From: Actinomycetes bacterium | GTDB lineage: Bacteria > Actinomycetota > Acidimicrobiia > Acidimicrobiales > Acidimicrobiaceae | NCBI GenBank assembly: GCA_021850605.1 | Contig: JAJZLQ010000036.1 | Coordinates: 1 to 63,163 of the forward strand | Length of the DNA stretch: 63,163 nucleotides | Direction: 5' to 3' | Shown here: in pieces, positions 1-981 of the stretch | How the letters are laid out: each line of letters opens with the position of its first letter | Numbering within the stretch: position 1 is the first letter of the stretch | Made by a program: the position numbers and the translations under genes | Notes under the pieces: generated by a model | Database searches by the model: none | Seen by the model: only the letters and a program-made list of their open reading frames with translations | Told to the model about the DNA's origin: nothing

Positions 1-51
1 TTCTACAACAGTACCCTCCAGCACGATCGCATCCTCTTTTGGCTTTGTCAG
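1..51 (-). CDS. infA: Translation initiation factor IF-1, 5' end only (cut by window edge)
   Basis: The reverse strand reads (start)-TKPKEDAIVLEGTVVE and then leaves the window, which is the IF-1 N-terminus just ahead of its OB fold. IF-1 occupies the ribosomal A site during initiation. The frame upstream is open for 15 codons back to a TGA and holds no ATG, GTG or TTG. The only usable start is CTG at 51-49, six bases after a strong AAGGAG Shine-Dalgarno (63-58). A GTG eight codons in would remove conserved residues. It lies downstream of map, the usual position. The identity is secure; the CTG start is an inference from the Shine-Dalgarno and the lack of alternatives. Confidence 0.85.
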   Translation of the reverse strand, partial: MTKPKEDAIVLEGTVVE

Positions 52-121
52 ATCCGGCTCCTTGGACTTACAACCAGCTCCGCGCTCCCACCCTTTTCAG
101 GGCAGCTCGGTCTAGGCCACG

Positions 122-152
122 ACTGTGCCCAGACTTTCGCACAGAGTGTCAA
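122..152 (-). promoter_or_regulatory. Candidate promoter for infA
   Basis: In the 156-base map-infA spacer the minus strand has a perfect TTGACA (152-147). A weak -10 (CACAGT, 127-122) follows after 19 bases. The -35 is good and the -10 is poor, so this is tentative. The spacing to the infA Shine-Dalgarno would give a leader of roughly 50 bases. Confidence 0.3.
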
Positions 153-207
153 GTCTATACGCTTAAATGCTCCACGCTGCAACTCCGCTCCGGCCACAAG
201 TCAGCCC

Positions 208-981
208 TCAGTCATCGGCTGTAAGTACTTCTGGGCCGTCCGGCGTGACCACGATGGTCTCCTCAAAATGGGCGGAAAGAGACCCGTCCAGGGTCACCAC
301 GCTCCAGCCGTCATCCAGCAGTCTGGTCTCGGGCCCCCCGAGGTTCACCATGGGCTCAACCGCGAATACGTTGCCCGACTTGAGCCTCGGTCCCGGGCTC
401 CCGGGCCAATAGTTGGGGACGTTGGGCGGCTCGTGCATTGCCGTTCCGATGCCATGGCCGACGTACTCCCGCACCACCGACATACCGGCGGCTTCCACCA
501 CCTGCTGGACGGCCCGACCTATGTCATGGAGGTGATTCCCTTCCTCCATCTCGGCGATGCCTGCCCACAAGCTGCGCCTGGTCACCTCCAAGAGACGTTC
601 CGCCTCCTTGGAGATCCGTCCCACACCGACGGTGTAGGCGGAGTCACCGTGGTATCCCTGCCATATCGCTCCACAGTCAATGGAAATTACATCGCCCTCC
701 TTGAGGCGGTAGTTCCCGGGGATGCCATGGACGATCATCGAGTTGGGCGAGGTGCAGATGACCGCAGGAAAGCCGTGGTAGTTGAGGAAGTTCGAGCGAG
801 CGCCACGCTTCTCGATGACCTCACGGGCCACCTTGTCCAACTCGGCGGTGGTCAAACCCTCGCGCACCACCTCACGGGTGCGTGCCTTTATCTCGGCAAC
901 GATCTTGCCGGCCCTGCGCATCTTGTCGAGTTCCGCCGCCGACCGGCGCACCGTTGCGTTCCACTTCAGGGGTTGCACCAT
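208..981 (-). CDS. map: Methionine aminopeptidase, type I
   Basis: Removes the initiator methionine from nascent proteins in the cytosol using two divalent metal ions. The 257-residue length and pita-bread fold match type I enzymes. The five metal ligands are visible: Asp102 (SIDCG), Asp113 (HGDSA), His176 (GHGIG), Glu209 (VEPM) and Glu240 (FEETI); His85 in HGIPG is the substrate-binding histidine. There is no N-terminal zinc-finger or SH3-binding extension. It follows adk after 13 bases and precedes infA, the standard spc-operon tail, so it is probably cotranscribed from secY. Confidence 0.96.
   Translation of the reverse strand: MVQPLKWNATVRRSAAELDKMRRAGKIVAEIKARTREVVREGLTTAELDKVAREVIEKRGARSNFLNYHGFPAVICTSPNSMIVHGIPGNYRLKEGDVISIDCGAIWQGYHGDSAYTVGVGRISKEAERLLEVTRRSLWAGIAEMEEGNHLHDIGRAVQQVVEAAGMSVVREYVGHGIGTAMHEPPNVPNYWPGSPGPRLKSGNVFAVEPMVNLGGPETRLLDDGWSVVTLDGSLSAHFEETIVVTPDGPEVLTADD

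Follow-up and report, generated by a model that had tools for sequence, protein, structure and literature searches.

The window analyzed here is the whole 63,163-nucleotide stretch of contig JAJZLQ010000036.1 (one of 154 contigs in the draft assembly GCA_021850605.1 of an Acidimicrobiaceae actinomycete), and its left end, read on the minus strand, harbors the 5' part of infA, which encodes translation initiation factor IF1. The upstream gene (208–981, minus strand), read from its sequence alone as map (methionine aminopeptidase), is followed by a leader of 156 bases, within which the Shine-Dalgarno (SD) sequence AAGGAG lies at 63–58 and CCGGAT at 57–52. The reading frame of infA then begins with CTG at 51–49, six bases after AAGGAG, and its first 17 codons, the CTG included, run over 51–1 to the contig end, the CTG being followed by ACA AAG CCA AAA GAG GAT GCG ATC GTG CTG GAG GGT ACT GTT GTA GAA. 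The upstream in-frame stop is TGA at 99–97, and no ATG, GTG or TTG lies between it and the CTG; the only canonical codon in the readable part is GTG at 24–22 (codon 10), inside the conserved N-terminus. The remainder of infA is found at the start of another contig of the same genome (C8, positions 3–188), where it matches the TIGR00008 infA profile with 114.7 bits over profile positions 8–69. The 20 overlapping bases of the two contig ends (window 1–20 and C8 1–20) differ at 3 sites, which suggests that the bin may mix strains, so that this copy was not relied on alone. However, the CTG does not depend on that contig end, as a related genome (G004, locus L036; loci read here are numbered with L and genomes with G), 96.7% identical over 539 bases, has the same SD and CTG inside a 46-kb contig, and its full-length protein matches TIGR00008 with 122.9 bits against a cut-off of 61.15, over positions 1–69 of 69. 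Therefore, the sequence-only reading, which had noticed an infA with CTG at 51–49 behind a perfect AAGGAG and no canonical start after the in-frame TGA, is confirmed in its observation.

Between map and infA, a possible σ70 promoter (TTGCAG, a 17-nt spacer and TATAGA; 154–182, minus strand) can be read by eye, although a consensus promoter scan found none at its threshold. In an alignment of 11 sequences of the genus, a block TATA(G/A)ACTTGA...CTGTG (125–182, minus strand) is largely conserved and may represent the infA promoter and transcript start, whereas AAGGAG and CTG are invariant in 11 of 11 while the leader varies. RNAalifold on 10 of these leaders (that of G009 was left out) gave only 7 pairs in all, comprising a 4-pair hairpin with some covariation and an unvarying 3-pair stem, and a search of four loci against Rfam returned a single hit, Alpha_RBS in L061, below its gathering score.

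Comparison with relatives, which had been proposed as a check of the CTG, shows that it reaches far beyond this window. Searches for infA matched 57 of 60 relatives, 142 of 148 genomes of the class and 147 of 149 of the phylum, these sets overlapping, and starts were read in 85 loci of 84 genomes of the same order (Acidimicrobiales-like Actinomycetota), 66 loci of 62 genomes from other orders of the class, and 83 loci of 81 genomes elsewhere in the phylum; not every match was fetched, and near-identical genomes are included. In the order, CTG stands at codon −11 before the E-G motif in 77 of 85 loci, and four more have CTG at −9 (L058), −13 (L052 and L060) and −16 (L224), so that 81 of 85 start with CTG by direct reading. 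The other four are ATC in L012 and L013, GTG in L054 and TTG in L059. A scripted rule that lets a nearby canonical codon win gives 78 CTG, 1 ATC, 4 canonical and 2 unclear of 85. In a named scan, of which the best 80 of 584 were kept, the nearest records are mostly labeled Acidimicrobiales, Acidimicrobiaceae or simply Actinomycetes, and among the 48 named loci L061–L108, partly from the same genomes, 45 read as CTG, 2 as ATC (L073, L077) and 1 as TTG (L087). The CTG is also found in two genomes assembled as one contig each, G017 (2,158,157 bases; L027) and G084 (4,830,181 bases; L149), inferred to be those of Acidimicrobium ferrooxidans ICPT (PMC3035218) and Ilumatobacter coccineum YM16-304 (PMC3910706).

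Several features indicate that this CTG is the start codon and not an internal leucine. An in-frame stop lies within six codons upstream of it in 31 of the 77 loci with CTG at −11, and touches it in L030; in 49 of 77 an upstream in-frame stop was found with no ATG, GTG or TTG between it and codon −7, whereas in the other 28 such a codon, or no stop, lies upstream. The −11 column in the order contains no CTC, CTT, CTA or TTA and a single TTG, that of L059 (four loci added after this tally are CTG), while an inner leucine of the same genes is encoded by CTC in 26, CTT in 23, TTG in 17, CTG in 13 and CTA in 5 of 84, and another one by CTT in 31, CTG in 24, CTC in 22, TTG in 7 and TTA in 1 of 85. 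In the other orders of the class CTC (4) and CTT (1) do occur in that column, but those that were looked up have another start codon next to it. The neighboring genes, which served as controls, start with CTG in none of the order loci that could be read: rpmJ has ATG in 66, GTG in 8 and TTG in 5 (0 of 79 with CTG, 6 unread), and rpsM has ATG in 77 and GTG in 3 (0 of 80, 5 unread). No CTG was found either among the readable loci of these two genes in the class or in the named set. The SD is strong, since of the 100 CTG calls in order and class 97 have an SD run of 5 or more bases, and 72 have a spacing of 5 or 6 by the script's measure. By comparison, CUG accounts for 0.024% of bacterial initiation codons (PMC11497404).

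ATG, GTG and TTG are stronger than CTG and each is one mutation away from it. In the 66 class loci outside the order, the scripted rule gives CTG in 22, GTA in 5, GTT, GTC and ATC in 1 each, canonical codons in 35 and 1 unclear; 24 of the 35 canonical loci have a more divergent IF1, scoring below 130 bits against the profile built for this analysis. A FastTree tree of IF1 plus rpmJ (170 rows, 99 columns, 78 of 151 inner branches open) requires a minimum of 15 codon changes and 6 changes of the canonical/non-canonical label. In its supported clade (SH-like 96) of 95 rows, which holds most of the order and part of the class, 83 rows are CTG, 9 are other weak codons (GTA 5, ATC 2, GTT 1, GTC 1) and 3 are canonical (L208, L229, L366). 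The tree leaves out 14 of the 85 order loci, namely 8 same-genus loci by choice and 6 (L023, L029, L043, L054, L059, L060) in which the script read no rpmJ, so that the two canonical order loci L054 and L059 lie outside that clade count; the ATC locus L012 also lies outside it. Its labels include hand corrections of the scripted calls: L028 (TTG upstream of the SD), L361 (ATG touching the SD) and L159 (GTG within the SD stretch) were read as CTG, L204 (CTG) and L013 (ATC) were accepted with a weak SD, L353 and L354 were read as ATT, and L259 as GTT. For L107, where the profile anchor fell at the wrong place, the reading made among the named loci was used. Replacements by weak codons are thus at least as common as replacements by strong ones (in the order, 2 ATC against 1 GTG and 1 TTG), which would support selection for weakness but rests on few events and on a poorly resolved tree.

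Elsewhere in the phylum, 57 of 83 loci are canonical by the rule, 16 non-canonical and 10 unclear. A family designated f58 reads ATT in 11 of 11 loci (L171, L172, L194 and L348–L355; 9 by the rule and 2 by reading), an apparent separate use of a weak start on infA, and family f76 has ATT and ATC in 2 of 2. Family f68 has ACG in 3, CTG in 1, GTG in 1 and an unclear start in 1 of 6; in four of its loci (L289, L357, L358, L292) there is no canonical start near the N-terminus, and ACG (three loci) or CTG (one) stands behind an SD-like stretch. L259 (family f74), called canonical by the rule, may start with GTT at −10, whereas the GTC call of L270 (family f92) is doubtful, since an ATG lies further upstream. 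The NC10 locus L139 looked like an ATC start but has an in-frame ATG at codon −17, and was rejected. Some class genomes (G130, G071 and G110; L244/L245, L248/L249 and L252/L253) have two IF1 matches of low score.

The gene for IF3, infC, also shows non-canonical starts in this class. A match to infC was obtained in 88 of 90 genomes, and in 50 loci read with a profile the start is ATA in 23, ATC in 22, CTG in 1 (L304, genome G139), ATT in 1 and ATG in 1, with 2 uncalled. In the genome of the window, infC (L328, contig C18, 34290–35390) starts with ATA directly after an in-frame TAA and behind AGGGAG. Weak infC starts also occur in genomes whose infA is canonical (for example G062, G068 and G073), so that the infA feature is an addition to the infC one. 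On the other hand, the initiator tRNA appears to be unaltered: the anticodon arm GGGCTCATAACCC is present in the own genome and in 15 of 21 genomes, the other 6 having none of this exact stem, and in a search limited to this stem the version with anticodon CAG, GGGCTCAGAACCC, was found in 0 of 21, so that an initiator tRNA matching CUG was rejected.

The closest known system is infC itself, the textbook case of a non-canonical start, in which AUU, AUC or AUA behind an SD is coupled to autoregulation by IF3; here, however, the gene is infA, the product IF1 and the codon mainly CUG, and autoregulation is only inferred. In Streptomyces, sigR has a GTC start for which repression by IF3 is shown (PMC5472188), but this is a sigma factor gene and not an initiation factor gene. 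Chloroplast infA reportedly starts with UUG (Hirose 1999, as cited in PMC9845219), which is a canonical bacterial start that IF3 does not reject, and in a different organism. Conserved weak starts with a strong SD are also found in ccpN (AUA; Staphylococcus aureus and Bacillus subtilis) and cvfC1 (AUU; staphylococci), which are other genes in another phylum (PMC13009471). No report of a CUG or AUU start of bacterial infA was found in the open-licence papers searched.

The model favored here, with moderate confidence, proposes that infA of this organism and of its order is translated from CUG by the ordinary initiator fMet-tRNA (anticodon CAU), held in place by the strong SD, and that the weak codon would be kept by selection because it makes IF1 synthesis sensitive to initiation stringency. 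CUG yields 0.86% of AUG in E. coli and makes less stable initiation complexes (PMC11497404), IF3 represses starts other than ATG, GTG and TTG (PMC5472188), and IF1 acts with IF3 in fidelity, mainly at 50S docking (PMC4611024; similar statements in the preprint PMC13345285). In this view, complexes on CUG would be rejected by IF3, supported by IF1, so that infA translation would be held down when IF1 and IF3 activity is ample, while CUG would be accepted more often, replenishing IF1, when it falls; as infC in the same class uses AUA or AUC, IF1 and IF3 would be set by the same sensor. What the sequence comparisons establish is the CTG start, strongly supported, its conservation, its replacement by other weak codons, the SD, the unaltered initiator anticodon arm and the non-canonical infC start, whereas the repression by IF3 and IF1 and the resulting feedback are inferred from sequence and from the known fidelity roles of these factors. 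In the papers searched, no measurement of IF3 or IF1 acting on CUG itself was found, and a review of IF3-discriminated triplets lists AUU, AUC and AUA, so that rejection of CUG by IF3 rests on the general statement in PMC5472188 and on general background. Moreover, a start of 0.86% of AUG strength looks too weak for an abundant factor unless other features compensate, and the canonical starts in 35 of 66 class loci outside the order, and in L054 and L059, indicate that the feature is not needed for IF1 in general. The interpretation offered by the sequence-only reading, a control of IF1 analogous to that of infC, is thus supported only in part: the analogy is apt, but autoregulation remains a reasonable inference.

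The main rival, which is considered unlikely, is that the CUG only sets a fixed low translation rate of infA, tuned against its operon neighbors, without feedback from IF1 or IF3. Weak starts do lower expression in general (PMC11497404; cvfC1 and ccpN of S. aureus, PMC13009471), and infA is followed by rpmJ and rpsM with canonical starts. Nevertheless, a weak ribosome-binding site could achieve the same, whereas here the SD is strong and the weakness lies in the codon, and infC shares the device in the same class. A relaxed start-codon selection in this clade, making CUG an ordinary start, is very unlikely though not excluded without a genome-wide count of CTG starts; one infC of the class also reads CTG (L304), but the absence of CTG from the readable rpmJ and rpsM starts and the standard initiator anticodon arm argue against it, as does the retention of ATA or ATC by infC, which makes most sense if such codons are discriminated. 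It is highly improbable that IF1 starts at the GTG (24–22) or at an unrecognized upstream codon, the CTG being an internal leucine or a leader base: although a purine-rich stretch precedes this GTG, the codon is GTG in only 25 of the 77 loci, starting there would delete the conserved KEDAI stretch, stops lie directly or shortly upstream of the CTG in 31 of 77, and synonymous CTC, CTT, CTA and TTA are absent from the column in the order. A sequencing or assembly error, which the sequence-only reading had named as a possible refutation, is excluded by the same CTG in contig interiors of relatives and in the single-contig genomes G017 and G084, despite the closeness of the contig end and the 3 mismatches in the overlap.

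A more far-reaching and tentative reading, somewhat less likely than not, is that IF1 controls its own synthesis through start-codon discrimination: in Acidimicrobiia (CUG), and separately in other Actinomycetota lineages (AUU in f58, possibly ACG or CUG in f68), infA would carry a codon that IF1 itself helps the 30S subunit to reject, giving paired IF1 and IF3 feedback loops read by the same fidelity checkpoint. It can also be inferred that gene finders allowing only ATG, GTG and TTG will truncate or miss IF1 in these genomes. Weak start codons on infC and a few other genes are already known, and what differs here is a conserved CUG on infA, suggesting that the cell limits how much IF1 it makes by keeping a weak start signal. 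A weak start kept across an order on a second initiation factor, with apparent separate uses elsewhere in the phylum, would extend start-codon control to IF1 and give a natural test of whether IF1 itself polices start codons in the cell.
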